From a virus, in the IMG/VR virus record IMGVR_UViG_3300022752_000480, positions 1 to 20,454 of that record: a stretch of 20,454 bases of DNA; one strand, 5' to 3'. How positions within the stretch are numbered: the first letter of the stretch is position 1; every line of letters begins with the position of its first letter. The notes below the pieces were generated by a model that searched no databases, had not been told where the DNA came from, and saw only the letters and a program-made list of their open reading frames with translations. Shown here piece by piece: positions 6,144 through 19,915 of this stretch. A program made the translations under genes and the position numbers.

Positions 6144-6704
6144 ATGGGTTGGAAAGTAACGACTGCACCGGTAAATGAACCTTGGACATTGCAAGAGGTT
6201 AAAGACTATTTAAAGATTGATGACTCAAACGAGGACACAATGATAAATACTTTAATTAAAGGTGCAAGGATGGTGGCAGAGAGTTATCTTAACCAAGCAT
6301 TAATAACACAAACAATAACGGAGAAATTTGATAGGTTGTCTAATCATACTATTTATCTTAGTGTGTCTCCAGTTATTACAGTTACTAATTTCCAGTACGC
6401 AGATAGCCAAAATACTACGCAAACATTTGCATCTACTAATTATGTCGTTGACACATTCACTAAGCCTGCAAGGTTAACGCTTGGCTACGGCAAGACATGG
6501 CCAACACTTTATGGGAATATAAATGATGTTACGATTACTTATACGGCTGGCTACGATACAGAAAGTAGCGGTGTACCATACCAAATAAGACAAGCTATTT
6601 TATTAATGATAGCTGATACATACGAGAATAGACAAGATTACGTTAGAAAATTACCTACTGCATCTCAATATTTACTTGACCAATATAGAGTTCAATATTT
6701 CTAA
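6144..6704 (+). CDS. Head-tail connector protein (HK97 gp6-like)
   Basis: This adaptor binds below the portal and joins the filled head to the neck. The 186-residue product shows the family layout: W-T-L-Q-E-V-K-D-Y-L-K-I-D (about 14-26), then D-x-x-I-N-x-L-I-x-x-A-R-x-x-A-E-S-Y-L-N-Q-A-L (33-54). This is the helical core shared by the gp6/QLRG-type connectors. A beta-rich insertion follows, and a last helix is built on Y-Q-I-R-Q-A-I-L-L-M-I-A-D-T-Y-E-N-R (146-163). It starts after an A-rich leader, and its stop overlaps the next ATG as TAATG. The position directly after the capsid gene is standard for this role. Confidence 0.85.
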   Translation: MGWKVTTAPVNEPWTLQEVKDYLKIDDSNEDTMINTLIKGARMVAESYLNQALITQTITEKFDRLSNHTIYLSVSPVITVTNFQYADSQNTTQTFASTNYVVDTFTKPARLTLGYGKTWPTLYGNINDVTITYTAGYDTESSGVPYQIRQAILLMIADTYENRQDYVRKLPTASQYLLDQYRVQYF

Positions 6705-8830
6705 TGAAATACAACAAAAATGAAATTATTGGTCGAATGCGTGATAGGATTACCATCCAAAATGTCACGCGTTCAAAATCAGATACAGGCTTTGCCCAGG
6801 AGTCATGGGCAGATAGTGCCATAGTTTGGGCGAATGCCGAAAGTAAGTTACCTCCATCAAATGAAACGGTGATTGATGGAAAGAATACTGCTAAAAATAT
6901 AAGCGACTTTACAATAAGATATACGACAGGCATAGATGAAGAAAGTCGTATTATTTGGAATGATAAACTATACCAAGTACGAAATATAAAGGTAAGTCAC
7001 GATAGAAGATTTATAAGTTTTCAAGGCGAATTCTACGACTCCTATATTCTTACCGGTGTTACCGTTGCCTCCATTCTTTCAGCCAATGCAAGCCTATCTT
7101 CCAATGTTAAGGTAATACATAATGTGCTTGCGGCTATGAATGCCATAGCAACGACAAACGCTGAAATAGTTGTTAGCCAACAAGGTCAAGTCTTGGCGGC
7201 TGCTTCCCTCTCCGCATCTGGCAATGTTTCTGCTGATGCTACAAAAGTGATACAAATTAATAGCGATGTTACGGCAAATGGCACTTTAGCTGCTGCGGTG
7301 ACAAAAGCTATAAATATAAATAGCACACTAAATGCAAATGCTACTTTAGTTGGTGATGCTTTGGTGAGCAAAACATTAATAAGTACACTAAATGCAAATG
7401 CTTCGACATCGGCTGCGGTTGATGTTGTGACGCAAGGTTCTGTTAGTGTTGATGCTGCATTAAATGCTTTAGGCACTGTTGCGGCTGAAATTAAACGTAC
7501 AGTTACATTAGTAAGTAGTTCAAGTACAAGCGCAACGACAGAATTAAACGCTACATTAACTAAAGTTATAGAGGCAAGCGCAACTGCAACGGCTAACACA
7601 CAAAGTGCTGCACAATTAACCATACCAGTTAACGCAGCTGCAAATGCTACGGCTAATACTACGGCTAATGCCACATTATCATATACAGTCAATGCTGACT
7701 TAAACGCTACGGCACAAACAACAATTGAAGCACAGATAACAAGAATTATCTCAGCTGAAATGACTGCAACTGCACAGACAAGCGTTGAGGCTGGTATCGG
7801 TGTTACTTTTGTTTCTTCATTAATGGCTTCGGGTTCTGTAACAAATGCTGAATTGTTTAGAACGGCAACGCTTGAAAGTTCAGTATCTGCAAACGGCACA
7901 ACTACATCAGCAATTACAACGGCTAAGAATATTGCGGCAAGTGTAAGCGGAGCGGCAACAGTGACGAGTGCGACATTAACTGCGGCTGCACCTACTGTAA
8001 CAGTTGATTACATTGTAGTTGCTGGTGGTGGTGGCGGTGGCACATCTCAAGGTGGTTTTTCTGGTGGCGGTGGTGGTGCTGGTGGATATAGGACTGCAAT
8101 AGGATTAATTTTAAATTTAAATACTCCTTATTCTGTTATTGTTGGGGGTGGAGGTCCTACTGATACAGTTGGCTCAAATTCTAAATTTGATACGATTGAA
8201 TCTAATGGCGGTGGTAAAGGTGGTATAGGTGGTGGTTCATCTAATAATGGAGGAAATGGTGGAAGTGGTGGCGGTGGTGGCACAAGAGCGAGCGCTGGTG
8301 CTGGTTCTGGTGGTATAGCCACAGTATCACCAAGCCAAGGAAATAATGGAGGTGCTGGCAATACATTAGGCAACGCGGATAGTCAATTACAAGCTGGTGG
8401 CGGTGGTGGTGCTGGTGGAGTTGGTGGTTCTGGTAATAATACAAATGCTGGTAATGGAGGAAGTGGTTTAACAAATAGTATTACAGGATTAACCTATTCT
8501 GGTGGTGGAGGTGGTGCAACATATGTAAGTACCATAGGCACAGGAGGTTCGTCAGTAGGTGGAAATGGTGCTAAATTTAACGTATCAGCATCAACACAAG
8601 GTACAGCAAATCGTGGTGGTGGTGGTGGTGGTGGTGGTGTTGTACTTGGTTCTCCAACTGGTGCTGCTGCTGAAGGCGGTTCTGGCGTAGTTATCATAAG
8701 AATACCCGAAGCAAATACTGCAACATTTAGTAGTGGAGTAACTGGTACTACCCCTGTTGTTTCTGGTGGATATAAAACATATACTATTACCGCAACAAGT
8801 GACACAACGAAAACAGTAACCTTTACATAA
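6704..8830 (+). CDS. Head-closure protein fused to repeat stalk and Gly-rich adhesin tip
   Basis: Residues 1 to about 115 look like a complete head-tail joining protein (Phage_H_T_join, SPP1 gp16 type), with G-R-M-R-D-R-I-T-I-Q (10-19) and ending near F-I-S-F-Q-G-E-F-Y. That family is normally only ~100-120 residues, but here the frame continues to 708. Residues ~120-430 form about 15 repeats of ~20 residues, rich in Ala, Thr, Ser, Val and Asn, with alternating hydrophobic positions, consistent with a beta-stacked stalk. Residues ~433-667 form a Gly-rich domain opening with V-D-Y-I-V-V-A-G-G-G (433-442) and closing with G-S-G-V-V-I-I-R-I-P (659-668). This resembles the glycine-rich domain of phage adhesins such as the T-even gp38 type. 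A short beta-rich end follows. The fusion is seen directly. Its role as a neck fibre is inference. Confidence 0.75.
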   Translation: MKYNKNEIIGRMRDRITIQNVTRSKSDTGFAQESWADSAIVWANAESKLPPSNETVIDGKNTAKNISDFTIRYTTGIDEESRIIWNDKLYQVRNIKVSHDRRFISFQGEFYDSYILTGVTVASILSANASLSSNVKVIHNVLAAMNAIATTNAEIVVSQQGQVLAAASLSASGNVSADATKVIQINSDVTANGTLAAAVTKAININSTLNANATLVGDALVSKTLISTLNANASTSAAVDVVTQGSVSVDAALNALGTVAAEIKRTVTLVSSSSTSATTELNATLTKVIEASATATANTQSAAQLTIPVNAAANATANTTANATLSYTVNADLNATAQTTIEAQITRIISAEMTATAQTSVEAGIGVTFVSSLMASGSVTNAELFRTATLESSVSANGTTTSAITTAKNIAASVSGAATVTSATLTAAAPTVTVDYIVVAGGGGGGTSQGGFSGGGGGAGGYRTAIGLILNLNTPYSVIVGGGGPTDTVGSNSKFDTIESNGGGKGGIGGGSSNNGGNGGSGGGGGTRASAGAGSGGIATVSPSQGNNGGAGNTLGNADSQLQAGGGGGAGGVGGSGNNTNAGNGGSGLTNSITGLTYSGGGGGATYVSTIGTGGSSVGGNGAKFNVSASTQGTANRGGGGGGGGVVLGSPTGAAAEGGSGVVIIRIPEANTATFSSGVTGTTPVVSGGYKTYTITATSDTTKTVTFT
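7058..7993 (+). repeat. About 15 degenerate ~20-residue repeats (coding)
   Basis: Within the fusion gene, residues ~119-430 repeat a pattern of about 20 residues. The rough consensus is S-x-[LV]-x-A-[NST]-[GA]-x-x-x-x-A-x-[ILV]-[TK]-[KR]-x-[IV]-x-[IL]. Clear copies begin near residues 167, 186, 206, 227, 330 and 391, and recurring blocks such as L-N-A-N-A (209-213, 229-233) are almost identical in DNA. Copies differ enough that the array looks old and selected at protein level. Confidence 0.7.
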
Positions 8831-8831
8831 T

Positions 8832-9215
8832 ATGGCACATTTTGCAAGAATAAAAGATAGTATCGTTGATTTTGTAGTTGTTGGTTGCGACGAAGATGAA
8901 AACAATGAGAATCAATTGGCTCATGATGAATGGATTTACAAACGCACATCATACAATACTCGTGGCGGTGTGCATTACACAAATGGAGTGCCAAGCCAAG
9001 ACCAAAGCAAGGCATTTAGAAAAAACTATGCTGGAATTGGATATTATTATGATGAAATAAGAGATGCTTTTATTCCTCCTAAACCTTTCCCTTCATGGAT
9101 ATTAGACCAATTTAGTTGCTTATGGCAATCGCCAATACCTTATCCAAATGATGGTAAAATATATCAATGGAATGAGGAAACAGGCAACTGGGAAGAAATA
9201 AACCTAACACGATGA
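8832..9215 (+). CDS. Small phage protein of unknown function, fibre-associated
   Basis: The 127-residue product opens with M-A-H-F-A-R-I-K and holds a middle segment around Y-N-T-R-G-G-V-H-Y (about 42-50). Its C-terminal half is very aromatic: A-G-I-G-Y-Y-Y-D-E (67-75), then D-A-F-I-P-P-K-P-F-P-S-W (79-90), then a Y-x-W-N-E-E-T-G-N-W close. I recall this pattern from uncharacterised structural-region proteins of marine T4-like phages and cyanophages, where function is unknown. The Trp/Pro-rich end with W-N-E-x-T-x-x-W resembles a small surface-binding module. It starts one base after the fusion gene stop and overlaps the glycosyltransferase as ATGA. A partner or assembly factor for the preceding adhesin is a reasonable guess only. 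Confidence 0.65.
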   Translation: MAHFARIKDSIVDFVVVGCDEDENNENQLAHDEWIYKRTSYNTRGGVHYTNGVPSQDQSKAFRKNYAGIGYYYDEIRDAFIPPKPFPSWILDQFSCLWQSPIPYPNDGKIYQWNEETGNWEEINLTR

Positions 9216-10186
9216 AAATAGCCATTTTTACAAACATCAACTCTCCAGCTACCGACTTTTATCGAACGGTTGGCTGCTATGCCTACATGAGGCATGATAT
9301 AAAATACCTTGCCATTGAATCGGCAAAGTGGTATGATTTAATGGATGTTGATGTTGTAGTGGCTAAGTCTCCTAATGGTATGCCTTACTTTGAGATGCTA
9401 AGAGAGTGTAAAAGGATGGGTAAAAAGATTATCATTGACCATGACGATAACTTGCATGAAACAACAAGGACTAATCCTGCACACGTTGAACTAAGCCATG
9501 AGGCAATAAGAAAAACGGTTGAGGATTGCTTTGGCTTTGCTAACCACATTATTTATTCTACTCATGCCTTACAAAAATATTATATGCCGTATCATGAAGG
9601 CATTGCAAGCACGGTTATTAATAATGGATGGAATCCAATCATTCAGCCATTCATGCCAGTGCCTAAGATAGAAGATAAGATAAGGTTTATTTGGAGAGGC
9701 TCAATGCACCATTTGGATGACATAGGCAGCATAGCAACTTATATAAATGAGTTAGCGGAAGATGAAAGCTGCGATGTTGCCATGCTTGGCATACAAGATT
9801 TTATTATGGCTCATCTATTTCCAAAGGTGAAAACAAAGGAATGGAATAGTTCATTATTTGGCTACTTTGAAACATTAAACAATAGCCAATGTCACTACGG
9901 CTTATTTCCGTTACTCAAAAACGATTTTAACTTTGCAAAGAGCAATATATTTGCCATTGAGATGTTAGTCGCTGGTGGTGTAACGATTGCGCCAAAAGGA
10001 ATACCAGAGTACAACATTCCAGGTGTAATAAAGTATGAGAAGTTTAGTGATGTCATGGAGGCAGTTAAAAACAAAGACTTTGACAGAGAGGCGATAGTGA
10101 AGGAGGGGAGGGAATATTTGAACGATGTGCTTAGAGTGGATAAGCAGAACAAAAAGAGAGAACTAATTTTAAATAATTTAAACTAA
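9212..10186 (+). CDS. Glycosyltransferase, GT-B fold (GT4-like)
   Basis: This enzyme probably transfers a sugar from an activated nucleotide sugar. The 324-residue product shows the two-lobe GT-B pattern. The N-terminal lobe has K-K-I-I-I-D-H-D-D-N-L (71-81) and N-H-I-I-Y-S-T-H-A-L (111-120). The C-terminal lobe starts with I-R-F-I-W-R-G-S-M-H-H-L-D-D (157-170). It then has the donor-binding region with F-N-F-A-K-S-N-I-F-A-I-E (239-250) and a G-I-P-E-Y-N motif (263-268) characteristic of Glycos_transf_1/GT4 enzymes. It lies inside the head-tail gene block, coupled by ATGA to the small protein before it. The neighbourhood suggests a virion protein as acceptor, the adjacent Thr/Ser-rich stalk being the obvious candidate. 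Host surface glycans or phage DNA bases are alternatives. No signal peptide, so it acts in the cytoplasm. Confidence 0.8.
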   Translation: MKIAIFTNINSPATDFYRTVGCYAYMRHDIKYLAIESAKWYDLMDVDVVVAKSPNGMPYFEMLRECKRMGKKIIIDHDDNLHETTRTNPAHVELSHEAIRKTVEDCFGFANHIIYSTHALQKYYMPYHEGIASTVINNGWNPIIQPFMPVPKIEDKIRFIWRGSMHHLDDIGSIATYINELAEDESCDVAMLGIQDFIMAHLFPKVKTKEWNSSLFGYFETLNNSQCHYGLFPLLKNDFNFAKSNIFAIEMLVAGGVTIAPKGIPEYNIPGVIKYEKFSDVMEAVKNKDFDREAIVKEGREYLNDVLRVDKQNKKRELILNNLN

Positions 10187-10192
10187 TAAACT

Positions 10193-10597
10193 ATGGCGGC
10201 TTTTTCAAATTATTTGGAAGACCAAATAACAGGATGGATAGCAGGTACTGCTTTTGCAACTGCTCCGACTGCTACATTTGTACAATTGTATAATGGTGAT
10301 CCAACTGACGCAGGATCTGGTGGTACTGCTCTTTTTACAAGATACCAAGTTGCATCTGGTGCAGGTTCTTGGACAAGAGGTACAGGTGGAAATGGTACAA
10401 TTACAAATGCATCTGCTTTTACTATTACATCAAGTGCAACGGCTACGGCATCTGCTACTTATGTTGCGGTATTTGATGCATCTGCAGCTGGTAATTTACT
10501 TTTTTATGGTCAATTAACTCCAACGGCTGGCAAAACAATTGCAGTAGGTGATGAAGTTAAGTTTAACGTAAGTGCTTTAACGCTAACAGTTGCTTAA
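10193..10597 (+). CDS. Small beta-rich virion-type protein (decoration or fibre protein)
   Basis: The 134-residue product resembles a widespread family of small phage structural proteins sometimes labelled tail fibre or capsid-associated. It has an N-terminal helix S-N-Y-L-E-D-Q-I-T-G-W (5-15), then T-F-V-Q-L-Y-N-G-D-P-T-D-A-G (28-41). Alternating strands follow through G-T-I-T-N-A-S-A-F-T-I (68-78) and a final G-N-L-L-F-Y-G-Q-L-T (99-108) with a V-G-D-E-V-K-F strand. Such proteins form a compact beta sandwich with no enzyme motif. It is followed directly by its own strong terminator, the only gene here besides the capsid gene with that arrangement. High copy number in the virion, as head decoration or neck/fibre subunit, is therefore plausible. 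The exact place in the particle is not shown. Confidence 0.6.
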   Translation: MAAFSNYLEDQITGWIAGTAFATAPTATFVQLYNGDPTDAGSGGTALFTRYQVASGAGSWTRGTGGNGTITNASAFTITSSATATASATYVAVFDASAAGNLLFYGQLTPTAGKTIAVGDEVKFNVSALTLTVA

Positions 10598-10641: not shown

Positions 10642-11226
10642 ATGACTTATATCACGCAGAGCCAAATATCAAGGTTAAAAAAAGCAAGTGGAACAGGTGC
10701 TAAGACAAGAGGTATTTTTGCTAATGGCTTAGCTGAAACTGTTATAGAACTTAATGATATATTAAGTAAAATAACCATTGATAAAAGGATGGATGTTATT
10801 AATGCTGGAATGCCTGCTGCAATAAATGTATATAAGTCTCTTATTCCTATATCTAAAAAAGAACATAAAATAAGTACGTTTGCTAAAGGTGTAGGAAAGT
10901 CTGGAGGTAATGCTGATTATAGGTATATAGTTAAGCCTGGTAACCTTCAAAGATCAATAAAAGGTTTAAGCCAATTATTAAAAAAATACAAGTGGAATAG
11001 TGGAGCAATTGGTCCTCATTATTTAGCACAACCAATAGGTTCTACTTTAAATAGTGAACAAAAATACGATGGCTTTTATGCTCACATGGTTTACGGCTCT
11101 GCCAAAGCATGGAGGCAAAAAATAGTTTTAAAAGCAAAAAATATGTCTGCATCTGTTGTTTATCCTAAGATGGTAGCAGAGGCAAAAGAAGTAGTTAAGA
11201 TGTATCCTAAAAAGTTTTGGGAATGA
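10642..11226 (+). CDS. HK97 gp10-like head-tail/tail completion protein
   Basis: The 194-residue product fits the HK97 gp10-like family, whose members sit at the neck or top of the tail and help join head and tail. Matching features are an early helix with D-I-L-S-K-I (38-43), a helix around M-P-A-A-I-N-V-Y-K (56-64) and P-G-N-L-Q-R-S-I-K (103-111), where this family usually has G-x-L-x-x-S-I. A G-x-x-x-x-x-x-x-Y-D-G-F-Y-A-H-M-V-Y-G segment (around 141-152) then leads to the C-terminal helix. It is longer than the usual ~110-150 residues because of an extended N-terminus. The gene restarts the standard head-tail order after the accessory block. Its stop overlaps the next ATG as ATGA. Confidence 0.75.
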   Translation: MTYITQSQISRLKKASGTGAKTRGIFANGLAETVIELNDILSKITIDKRMDVINAGMPAAINVYKSLIPISKKEHKISTFAKGVGKSGGNADYRYIVKPGNLQRSIKGLSQLLKKYKWNSGAIGPHYLAQPIGSTLNSEQKYDGFYAHMVYGSAKAWRQKIVLKAKNMSASVVYPKMVAEAKEVVKMYPKKFWE

Positions 11227-11612
11227 TAGGAAAAGTAATATATGGAAGGTTAAGCGCAGAGCCTACAGTTATAGCGATTGTTGGGCAAAAGATATATCCT
11301 GATTTAACACCTCAGGATGTGCAATATCCTTTCTGTGTTTATACTATCGTAAACTCTCTCCCAATTGATTACAAGGATGGACAAAGTAATTTGGAGGAGG
11401 TGCAATTCCAAATTGATTGCTATACTCAAAGCTATGATAGTACGCAAGAACTCGCAAACAACATAAGAAATAGCCTTGATAGGTTTGTAGGGACTATAAA
11501 TGGAGTTGAAGTGCAAACTATTAAATATATGTCAAGCGATTCACAGGTTTACAATCCTACGCTAAATGTATATTGGATGTCAGTTGATTTTATGGCAAGA
11601 ATGAAAAGATAA
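11223..11612 (+). CDS. Tail completion/terminator protein (DUF3168-like)
   Basis: This protein caps the tail tube and docks it to the head in related siphoviruses (SPP1 gp17 type). I place the start at the ATG at 11223, which overlaps the preceding stop (11224-11226). A TTG two codons upstream (11217) would extend the frame but is less likely. From the ATG the product is 129 residues. It has the family layout: a short helix, V-G-Q-K-I-Y-P-D-L-T-P-Q (about 21-32), the Q-Y-P-F-C-V-Y strand (35-41), an E-V-Q-F-Q-I-D-C-Y strand (60-68), then a helix with N-N-I-R-N-S-L-D and final beta strands. Position between gp10-like and tube proteins supports the call. Confidence 0.8.
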   Translation: MIGKVIYGRLSAEPTVIAIVGQKIYPDLTPQDVQYPFCVYTIVNSLPIDYKDGQSNLEEVQFQIDCYTQSYDSTQELANNIRNSLDRFVGTINGVEVQTIKYMSSDSQVYNPTLNVYWMSVDFMARMKR

Positions 11613-17280: not shown

Positions 17281-17651
17281 TGCCCAGTTATACAGAGAGA
17301 GTAATTTTGTCTAAGCCAAACGACTTTAATAACATTCCAAATAACGCTGGAAGTGGAGGAGTAGTAAGCAGCAATGTGACTGAAACAATAAATAACGTAA
17401 CAGTTAACGGTAGTAATATTTCTATTTTTAATCAAGAATTTCTTGATACAAAATCTGCTATATTAACATGGACACAAAATAATAATAAGTTACCTACTAC
17501 AAATATATTAGCTGCTATTCACGTTTACCAAAACGGTCAGAAATTAATAGATTCACAATATAATATTACTCAACCAAACACAATTACAATAGATAGTAAT
17601 ACGCATTACGATGGTTCAAATTATATTATTTTTGCAATAATTATAAACTAA
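17280..17651 (+). CDS. Small beta-rich tail/fibre-base protein
   Basis: The 123-residue product has a disordered-looking Asn/Gly/Ser-rich start. A V-T-E-T-I-N-N-V-T-V-N-G-S (33-45) segment follows, of the kind found where trimeric fibres join a baseplate. The rest is a compact beta domain with I-L-T-W-T-Q-N-N-N-K-L (61-71), H-V-Y-Q-N-G-Q-K-L (80-88) and a hydrophobic C-terminal strand. It overlaps both neighbours by one base (TAATG), so it is made together with the tail-tip protein and the fibre. A role as fibre connector or small receptor-binding subunit is likely from position. The family is not recognised. Confidence 0.6.
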   Translation: MPSYTERVILSKPNDFNNIPNNAGSGGVVSSNVTETINNVTVNGSNISIFNQEFLDTKSAILTWTQNNNKLPTTNILAAIHVYQNGQKLIDSQYNITQPNTITIDSNTHYDGSNYIIFAIIIN

Positions 17652-19915
17652 TGGAAGAAATTAAAGCACCTAAGAAAGAAAGAAAGTTTTTAAAATCCAT
17701 TGGTCGCATTGCTGGTGTTTTAGCTCAAGAACTTGTACTTGGTTTAGGAAGAAAATACATAGGTAAAATGATAAACAAAATTAAGATTCCAAAGAAAAGA
17801 GAAACGCTATCTTTTCTATTACTTCTTTCCTGCACCTTTGCCTTTGCCCAGTATCCAGCGACAGGGAATAAACAAAGATTGGGTTATCAGACAAGTGGAG
17901 ATGGATTGGTTTTTAGAGGAAGGTCGAGCGATACAACGGCATTAAAACCTTCTACTATTAATAATGCTTACCATTTATTTGATACAGTAAACAATGTCTT
18001 ATTTAGTTACATTAAGACTAAAGGAGGATGGAAGTTTAATAATAGTGATACGATTATAATTCAAGGTGCAACAATGCCATTTGATTCTATTACCTTTAAT
18101 ACGGCAAAGGATGGTACTGTAGGAGTGGGCGAAGTAGAATACAATGATTCGCAAGGCTCTTTGATTCAAGGCTTAAAAGGTGGCAATGTGACCAATATAA
18201 TAGGGCAGCAATTACACCAAAGAGTAAGCAATGTTACTGGCTCAACACTATCTAAGGGTACTGCGGTTTATTTGTCAGGTAGCCAGGGAAATAGAATAAC
18301 GGCAGCCAAGGCACTTGCAACAAGCGATCCAACATCGGCAAATACATTTGGCATTGTTGCGGAAAGCATAGCTGATAATGCAAGTGGCTATGTCATTACA
18401 GAAGGATTAATTACAGGAATAAATACATCAGGATTAACAGAAGATTCTGCTGTTTACTTATCTCCAACAGTTGCAGGAGGATTAACATCAACCAAGCCAC
18501 AAGCACCTAATCACGGTGTTTATATCGGTGTGTGTGTTAAAAGCAATGCTGGTTCAGGAGAATTATTTGTTAAAATAAAAAATGGTTTAGAGTTAGATGA
18601 ATTGCATGATGTGTTAATTACATCGCCTGCAAGTAATGCAAGTTTGTATTATAAAAGTAGTGAAGGTATTTGGCGAGACACAACTGCAGCACTTTTGGTC
18701 AGCGATACGGCAAGTATGTTGACAAATTATTTGCGCACTGGTGTTGCAGCTTCGACATATCAAACAAAGTTAAATGGTACTGGTTTTGTAAAAGCAAGCG
18801 GTACAACCATAACTTATGATAATTCAACTTATCTTACATCCTCAACAGGTGTGACCACTTTTTCAGCAGGTACTACTGGCTTTACACCATCCTCTGCTAC
18901 ATCTGGCGCAGTGACATTGGCTGGCACATTAGCAATTGCCAACGGAGGCACAGGTGCAACATCAGCATCGGCTGCAAGGACTGCTTTAGGCGCAACGGTG
19001 CGAGGTGCAAATACTTTTACTTTAACAGATATAGGAGCAATTTCATTTTTACGATACAATGCAGATAACACGGTTAGCCAAAGGGCAGCCGATGGAATGC
19101 GTAGCGATTTAGGAGGTACAACTATTGGACAAAGTATGTTTACTTTAACTAATCCTTCTGCTATTACCTTTCCAAGATTTAACGCTGATAATACGGTGAG
19201 TGCTTTAGATGCTGCAAGTTTTAGAACTGCTATTGGAGCAGGCACAGGTAATGGAAATGGAACGGTAACAAGTGTTACAGGATCCTTACCTATTTCATCA
19301 AGCGGAGGAACAACACCAAACATAACCATCGCCAATGCTTCAACAACTGCATCGGGTGTAGTTACTACATCAACTCAAAGCATGGCAGGAAACAAAACAT
19401 TTACGGGAGATTTGGCAACAAGTGGGGCTTTTAGCGCAACAGGTTTTAGCACATTAACAGGCGGTGCAAGTATAGGTACAATGGCTACAACATCATCTTT
19501 AACTCATATTCTTGGTGTGAATAGTAGTAATGCAATTGGTGAAATAGCTTTAGGTAGTGGATTAAGTTTATCAAGCGGAACATTGTCTGCAACGGCATCA
19601 GGTGCAGTAAATGTATATCTTGCAATAAATGGACCTGGAATTACTTTATCTTCAAGTTTTGGTGAATATTCACATTGGTATGTAAATATAAATCAAAGTT
19701 CAACTGTAAGTATTACTTTACCTTCTGCAAGTGGTAATACAAATAAAACACTAGTAATAAAAAATTCAGGTGCTGGAGCGGTAAATTCTAATTCAACAAA
19801 CATTGAGCCATTAAATAGCACATCATTAACAACAGCTATTTTACCATCTGGTGGTGGTAAATTTGCAACTCTTGTAAGCAATGGCACTAACTGGATAATC
19901 ATGCAAGCTAATTAA
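17651..19915 (+). CDS. Tail fibre protein with internal signal-peptide-like segment
   Basis: The 754-residue product is a long, beta-rich, Thr/Ser/Gly/Ala-rich fibre. Residues 1-50 are basic and amphipathic. Residues 51-66 are a hydrophobic core ending in A-F-A before Gln67, exactly like a Sec signal peptide if translation began at Met40 (17768). Residues ~185-321 form a domain known from many tail proteins, with S-K-G-T-A-V-Y-L-S-G (about 203-212) and L-D-E-L-H-D-V at its end. Next comes the classic fibre motif N-G-G-T-G-A (431-436) and two ~41-residue repeats with R-[YF]-N-A-D-N-T-V. The C-terminal ~130 residues form a separate beta domain, probably the receptor-binding tip. No chaperone-type self-cleaving domain is recognised. 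The role in host attachment follows from composition and position. Confidence 0.82.
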   Translation: MEEIKAPKKERKFLKSIGRIAGVLAQELVLGLGRKYIGKMINKIKIPKKRETLSFLLLLSCTFAFAQYPATGNKQRLGYQTSGDGLVFRGRSSDTTALKPSTINNAYHLFDTVNNVLFSYIKTKGGWKFNNSDTIIIQGATMPFDSITFNTAKDGTVGVGEVEYNDSQGSLIQGLKGGNVTNIIGQQLHQRVSNVTGSTLSKGTAVYLSGSQGNRITAAKALATSDPTSANTFGIVAESIADNASGYVITEGLITGINTSGLTEDSAVYLSPTVAGGLTSTKPQAPNHGVYIGVCVKSNAGSGELFVKIKNGLELDELHDVLITSPASNASLYYKSSEGIWRDTTAALLVSDTASMLTNYLRTGVAASTYQTKLNGTGFVKASGTTITYDNSTYLTSSTGVTTFSAGTTGFTPSSATSGAVTLAGTLAIANGGTGATSASAARTALGATVRGANTFTLTDIGAISFLRYNADNTVSQRAADGMRSDLGGTTIGQSMFTLTNPSAITFPRFNADNTVSALDAASFRTAIGAGTGNGNGTVTSVTGSLPISSSGGTTPNITIANASTTASGVVTTSTQSMAGNKTFTGDLATSGAFSATGFSTLTGGASIGTMATTSSLTHILGVNSSNAIGEIALGSGLSLSSGTLSATASGAVNVYLAINGPGITLSSSFGEYSHWYVNINQSSTVSITLPSASGNTNKTLVIKNSGAGAVNSNSTNIEPLNSTSLTTAILPSGGGKFATLVSNGTNWIIMQAN
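18977..19239 (+). repeat. Tandem ~41-residue fibre repeats (coding)
   Basis: Two successive units contain F-T-L-T, A-I-[ST]-F and R-[YF]-N-A-D-N-T-V-S, each followed by a helix-like R-x-x-[LI]-G end. The R-[YF]-N-A-D-N-T-V motif recurs exactly 41 codons apart (near 19052 and 19175). A preceding A-A-R-T-A-L-G end gives the boundary of the first unit. Such repeats form the shaft of tail fibres. Confidence 0.7.

Follow-up and report, generated by a model that had tools for sequence, protein, structure and literature searches.

A phage stopper protein extended by a repeat stalk and an exchangeable tip: a predicted adhesin arm at the neck

Can the protein that closes a phage head also carry an adhesin? 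The question is raised by open reading frame 6704–8830 of IMG/VR virus record IMGVR_UViG_3300022752_000480, a 20,454-base stretch from an uncultured phage that is called the window here and to which all positions refer. The frame has 708 codons plus a stop codon, contains no internal stops, and joins a complete head-completion or stopper domain (HCP, Hc1) to a repetitive stalk and a glycine-rich tip. We favour, with a probability of roughly 0.8, the reading that the C-terminus of the stopper continues into a beta-repeat stalk with an adhesin tip that can be exchanged, and that these extensions would stand out from the neck as arms.

The fusion has three parts, which lie on the + strand like all other features described below from the adaptor to the tail terminator. 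The stopper domain (residues 1–115; 6704–7048) is recognised by PF05521 Phage_HCP at residues 9–103 (E 8.5e-15; profile positions 3–98 of 106; 55.7 bits against a cut-off of 25), a match also present in 20 of 20 relatives scanned, and by PHROG_25 ('head closure Hc1') at residues 9–104. An HCP alignment matches PDB 2kz4, a head-tail adaptor, at E 5.8e-10; this structure is SF1141, which is termed a putative stopper (PMC9701221). The stalk (residues 116–420; 7049–7963) consists of about 15 repeats of 20 residues and is predicted to be beta-structured. It is followed by the Gly-rich adhesin tip (residues 421–708; 7964–8827), in which residues 422–667 match PF21722 Gly_rich_2 (E 4.2e-14; 53.6 bits, cut-off 24.3). 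The sequence-only reading of this DNA had proposed a near-complete joining domain at residues 1 to ~115, which agrees with both family matches and with the domain end at ~115 (..FYDSY) read from relatives with an unfused HCP.

An assembly or sequencing artefact that joined two genes might be suspected in a metagenomic contig of an uncultured virus. However, an IMG/VR search with the HCP domain finds more than 90 loci (labelled here with L-numbers such as L013, L051 and L095) whose HCP is ~70–100% identical to that of the window, and the same architecture recurs among them. The frame runs unbroken through the HCP/stalk joint in all retrieved relatives that extend past the HCP, with the sole exception of a decayed allele (L095/L232), and the fused proteins are 478 to 743 residues long. 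The uninterrupted 708-codon frame noticed earlier is thus genuine, with neither a stop nor a frameshift near residues 115–145 in independent contigs apart from the decayed one. Ratios of nonsynonymous to synonymous substitution rates (dN/dS) between the window and 12 relatives are 0–0.09 in the HCP and 0.12–0.26 in the stalk, which indicates purifying selection throughout the fused frame. The artefact is refuted, since dozens of independent contigs share the joint and purifying selection acts across it. A pseudogene was likewise rejected, the frame being unbroken in relatives and dN/dS low.

Exactly one HCP is present in each of 17 fused contigs of at least 12 kb, so the fused HCP has no spare copy beside it and appears to be the working stopper; a second HCP, considered as an explanation, was rejected on this count (17/17). 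The same observation bears on the idea that the HCP-like domain is merely a fibre anchor that has lost its closure role to some other head-closing protein. General reasoning allows this, in that HCP homologues, being short domains, could be recruited as anchors, but the single HCP per contig, its low dN/dS and its location after the adaptor Ad1, the same as that of the stand-alone HCP of relatives, make it highly improbable. Among cultured phages, tblastn searches with the full-length protein and with the stalk give zero matches and the HCP alone gives distant matches only; for capsid and terminase, too, the cultured relatives are all distant, which leaves no cultured model to work with.

AlphaFold applied to the whole protein models the tip well and the HCP poorly, and the HCP alone reaches a predicted local distance difference test score (pLDDT) of 52. 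The top fold match of this low-confidence model is SPP1 gp16 in the connector (E 0.011). The other top matches are the Pam3 neck, the neck of Agrobacterium phage 7-7-1, the Bxb1 connector and 2kz4, followed by the phiXacJX1 connector, a gene transfer agent (GTA) particle, XkdH and gp16 in solution. None lies below E 0.01, and the list consists consistently of known stoppers. In SPP1, gp16 forms a hexamer that plugs the portal channel (PMC9701221), which makes six arms per virion the natural expectation, and by this analogy the copy number is probably six.

The stalk was earlier described as ~15 repeats of ~20 residues, and its periodicity supports this: over residues 117–420 identity is 25% at a lag of 20 residues and 21% at lags of 40 and 60, and no lag exceeds 19% in any of 500 shuffles. 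The AlphaFold model contains weak beta-strand pairs at residues 289–360. Stalks are likewise exchanged: at least four types occur among the relatives, and the Gly-rich tip of L102 sits on a different one. Stalk and tip together (residues 102–696) match PHROG_2295, a family of unknown function, from PHROG position 320 on; other phages may thus mount the same arm on an N-terminal base of another kind.

The Gly-rich tip is modelled with pLDDT mostly above 85, and the V-D-Y-I-V-V-A-G-G-G ... G-V-V-I-I-R-I-P frame picked out by the sequence-only reading corresponds to the ends of this domain. Foldseek matches the tip to the Bxb1 tail tip (9d93_Qa; E 6.8e-5) and the Pam3 tail fibre (7ypx_A; E 2.1e-4), and a profile comparison also matches the Pam3 fibre (E 0.004). 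A stopper domain with a covalent adhesin arm is supported by everything that can be tested from sequence. Tip exchange, a candidate chaperone, a Gp80 partner and arm-less relatives go beyond what had been claimed for the locus.

Tips vary far more than the domain that bears them. HCPs at least 99% identical go together with tips that are less than 50% identical or unalignable in 153 pairs of contigs, and the converse is seen in L022 and L079, with tips 88% identical on HCPs 74% identical. Comparison of the window with L051 at the nucleotide level shows where the exchange falls: the HCP is 96% identical, the stalk 85–90%, the glycosyltransferase-like gene 95% and the gene starting at 10642 99%, and the tip together with gene 8832 cannot be aligned save for a 4% stretch. 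Genes flanking exchanged tips are 85–99% identical on both sides. Gly-rich tips are the majority; Pfam identifies laminin-G-like, arabinofuranosidase-like and DUF6923 types among the others. A further type (DADAQAFFNRVTTAGG...) has no convincing Pfam match, and in other phages it is mostly a small stand-alone protein of ~270 residues. Directly downstream of one non-Gly tip type, in L099, L100 and L101, lies a 73-residue gene (MIGYILTIAQKQ...), possibly another tip-specific accessory protein.

The glycosyltransferase-like gene (9212–10186; PHROG_7162, E 3.2e-18) forms the right flank of the exchanged tip cassette. Its product retains 93–97% amino acid identity across most of the window's lineage, and the gene is found in 36 of 60 fused and 0 of 52 unfused loci. 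It perhaps modifies glycans of the virion or of the host surface.

By these comparisons the tips are hypervariable and exchanged between phages, as receptor-binding parts are, and from this pattern we infer that the arm binds a receptor or cells. Alternatively, a neck arm could work without host recognition: it could be a decoration that sticks weakly to particles, mucus or extracellular polymer, or act as a T4-like whisker that controls the tail fibres. The tips of the A-1(L) neck fibres did not bind the host (PMC10966104), a separate tail-fibre-like protein is encoded at 17651–19915, and the existence of arm-less relatives implies that the arm is dispensable in some backgrounds. General matrix adhesion, however, does not obviously require such extreme turnover of the tips relative to their neighbours, and the tips match adhesins of tail tips and tail fibres. 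An arm without host recognition is, with cleavage of the chain, one of the two main rival readings, and we think it less likely than not.

Gene 8832–9215 (PHROG_7759), directly after the tip, appears to be a tip-specific partner. It follows 45 of 49 Gly-rich tips and 0 of 14 other tips (Fisher P 8e-11, which overstates independence as the contigs are related). The first ~45 residues of its product are variable (31% mean pairwise identity at residues 16–30) and the remainder is ~70–90% identical. Once HCP similarity is corrected for, the more alike two of these N-termini are, the more alike are the tips (partial Mantel r 0.52, 0 of 2000 permutations), and the C-terminus shows no such covariation (r 0.09, p 0.08). 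The product has no PDB match at E 10 or better and no Pfam match. In Pam3, gp25 is the chaperone of the Gly-rich tail fibre gp24 and has a variable client-binding N-terminus and a conserved trimerising C-terminus (PMC9608196). Gene 8832 has this Tfa-like layout, adjoining its client and combining a variable, client-specific N-terminus with a conserved C-terminus. Since it has no sequence match to a solved chaperone, the comparison is one of function by analogy and not of family membership; with that reading, the product is probably a Tfa-like fibre-assembly chaperone that folds the Gly-rich tip.

Relatives without the arm were found by queries with a tail-tube protein and an adaptor from recombinant contigs, and they define the joint precisely. 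Their HCP is a stand-alone gene of 113 residues (ending ..RTSY or ..RQGY) or 118 residues (ending ..FDSYATV), and the fused proteins continue exactly at this end (..RSSY|TSIY, ..RSGY|ILEN, ..YDSY|ILTG). No separate stalk or tip gene adjoins the HCP in the unfused relatives. Where arm-less phages were inspected, the HCP is followed directly by the next neck gene (10642–11226 in the window), which begins within two bases of the HCP stop (a gap of 0–2 bp) or overlaps it by 1 base. Armed phages have the order HCP-stalk-tip, gene 8832 (in some), the glycosyltransferase-like gene (in some), Gp80 and the next neck gene.

Gp80 is the constant companion of the arm. In the window this Gp80-family small fibre protein is encoded at 10193–10597 and matches PF23140 (E 9.7e-24; 84.6 bits, cut-off 27) and PDB 8jou_a (E 1.3e-11). 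It is present in 60 of 60 armed versus 1 of 52 unarmed distinct loci (P 2e-31, again overstating independence among related contigs). The sole unarmed locus with Gp80 is L232, on the same contig as L095 (IMGVR_UViG_3300028569_000287; L095 7128–7835), and it is a remnant of arm deletion: a 159-residue HCP frame with a stalk stub is followed by interrupted stalk remains, Gp80 is retained, and neither the HCP nor the tail genes downstream are damaged. This contig has terminase, portal, capsid and adaptor of a different type, so that foreign head genes are joined to intact tail genes and the two modules have recombined next to the HCP.

Presence and absence of the arm can also be compared in a near-isogenic pair. 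The armed L214 and the unarmed L220 are 92.8% identical to near the HCP end and 95.5% identical past the cassette, and differ by ~1.9 kb. On the HCP tree the armed or unarmed state requires four changes at best, at least two of them forced by well-supported branches, so gain or loss of the arm has happened more than once. These alignments identify the arm as an optional, modular cassette added at the exact end of the HCP.

The same loci bear on whether the chain stays whole. It might be cleaved after synthesis, the HCP going to the neck and the stalk and tip elsewhere or becoming a separately attached fibre. The phage encodes an S78-family prohead protease, and a freed HCP would work, as unfused HCPs of 113–118 residues evidently do and as the 159-residue stub kept in L095/L232 also suggests. 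Against cleavage, a freed stalk and tip would be without a known docking part, unfused relatives lack a separate stalk/tip gene beside the HCP, and the joint varies by lineage (TGVTVA, IQPVLI, STVIGL, TSIYAG, ILENLI), which disfavours a conserved cleavage site. We regard cleavage as unlikely.

With the chain intact, the arm would be built as follows. Once the DNA is packaged, the N-terminal domain, probably in six copies, would bind to the Ad1 ring and seal the portal channel as SPP1 gp16 does. The C-terminal extensions would leave the ring outward, offering the tip to the host surface or to glycans in the surroundings. The gene 8832 product would fold the Gly-rich tip as a Tfa-like chaperone, and Gp80 would go with the arm, perhaps as its collar or as a second appendage. 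Arm-less sister phages possess the HCP alone, and tips and stalks are swapped by recombination. It is quite probable that this is a class of neck appendage in which the genome-sealing stopper has become the root of a fibre, with an optional cassette of stalk, tip, chaperone and Gp80 joined at the same residue, apparently more than once. The cassette would then act as a plug-in organ for receptor binding, its tips passing from phage to phage.

Several points weigh against this interpretation. The arm is known here from sequence and predicted models, the HCP model is of low confidence, and the direction of the C-terminus in the ring is only inferred. A hexameric stopper has no simple match with a Gly-rich tip that is possibly trimeric, as is Pam3 gp24. 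The encoded S78 prohead protease makes cleavage after translation possible, the tail-fibre-like protein at 17651–19915 leaves room for a main receptor-binding protein other than the arm, and the P values given above come from related contigs.

The surrounding gene order is that of an ordinary head-neck-tail region by Pfam and PHROGs: portal, S78 prohead protease, capsid, Ad1, the fusion gene and later the tail terminator, tail tube and tape measure. The fusion gene lies, as stoppers do, between the head-tail adaptor Ad1, the docking ring for the stopper (6144–6704; PF05135 E 2.1e-10, PHROG_442), and the tail terminator or tail completion gene (11217–11612; PF11367 E 4.7e-15, PHROG_347). The 17651–19915 protein has 754 residues, a hydrophobic, secretion-signal-like stretch near its N-terminus and a weak match to BppL_N (E 0.0024) that does not reach the curated cut-off; being tail-fibre-like, it is a candidate for tail-end receptor binding besides the neck arm. 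Tail tube proteins of sister phages (L183–L230, e.g. L013 4709–5428) are ~240 residues long and that of the window only 142; the C-terminal extension of the former resembles a fibronectin type III domain by eye. Rfam detects no RNA element in this DNA.

Bacterial genomes were scanned with the HCP and with a capsid alignment, and neither scan found relatives. A Shine-Dalgarno-like motif lies upstream of 0 of 22 gene starts in the window, and absence of such motifs fits phages of Bacteroidota. Among cultured phages, Flavobacterium phage FL-1 gives the best match to one tip family. A Bacteroidota host fits both observations, neither being proof.

Receptor-binding parts are usually looked for at the tail tip or in separate whiskers. 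With an arm fixed covalently to the gate that keeps the DNA in, host contact or surface adhesion would take place on the very ring that has to open for ejection, raising the question of whether neck contact influences gate opening. The near-isogenic armed and unarmed pairs and the series of tip swaps constitute a natural experiment on the function of neck appendages, and likely roles emerge for two poorly annotated families, PHROG_7759 as a tip chaperone and Gp80 as an arm companion.

Known systems share parts of this arrangement. The sequence-only reading had known of no head-closure subunit with its own adhesin, and no published stopper of this kind was found in the open-access papers searched, subscription literature being mostly outside this scope. 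Stoppers of the SPP1 gp16 type (PF05521) resemble residues 1–115 in sequence, in their place after Ad1 and, weakly, in fold, but the known members are stand-alone proteins of ~110 residues whereas here a 590-residue arm follows. The Gly-rich tip fold is shared with Pam3 gp24 and S16 gp38, and Pam3 also has the adjacent chaperone gp25 with variable N-terminus and conserved C-terminus; those tips, however, are mounted on a baseplate or tail fibre and not on a stopper, and the partner here is without a PDB sequence match. Gene 10193 is a clear homologue of podophage GP4 Gp80 / fibre I (PF23140, PDB 8jou), although here it accompanies an arm carried on the HCP, and the phage has long-tail (tape measure) genes. 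The neck passage structure (NPS) of lactococcal TP901-1 and its relatives consists of neck-anchored elongated proteins ending in carbohydrate-binding modules (PMC10747895), whose C-terminal domains are exchanged between lactococcal phages (PMC10684548). It thus offers a neck-anchored, elongated arm, with modular C-terminal ends swapped in both systems, but the NPS is a separate protein whose own N-terminal domain is predicted to form a ring over the portal/adaptor junction, and here the arm is covalent on the stopper. Cyanophage A-1(L) bears neck fibres as appendages at its neck (PMC10966104); these and the T4 whiskers (fibritin) are likewise neck appendages, but are separate fibre proteins that dock on neck rings. 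Whiskers and NPS are separate proteins, each carrying a collar-ring domain of its own at the N-terminus, and in the fusion described here the N-terminus is instead the stopper itself. Neck appendages as a class are therefore known from T4, A-1(L) and the NPS, where they are described as separate proteins, and we judge the covalent stopper arm to be a new variation on them.

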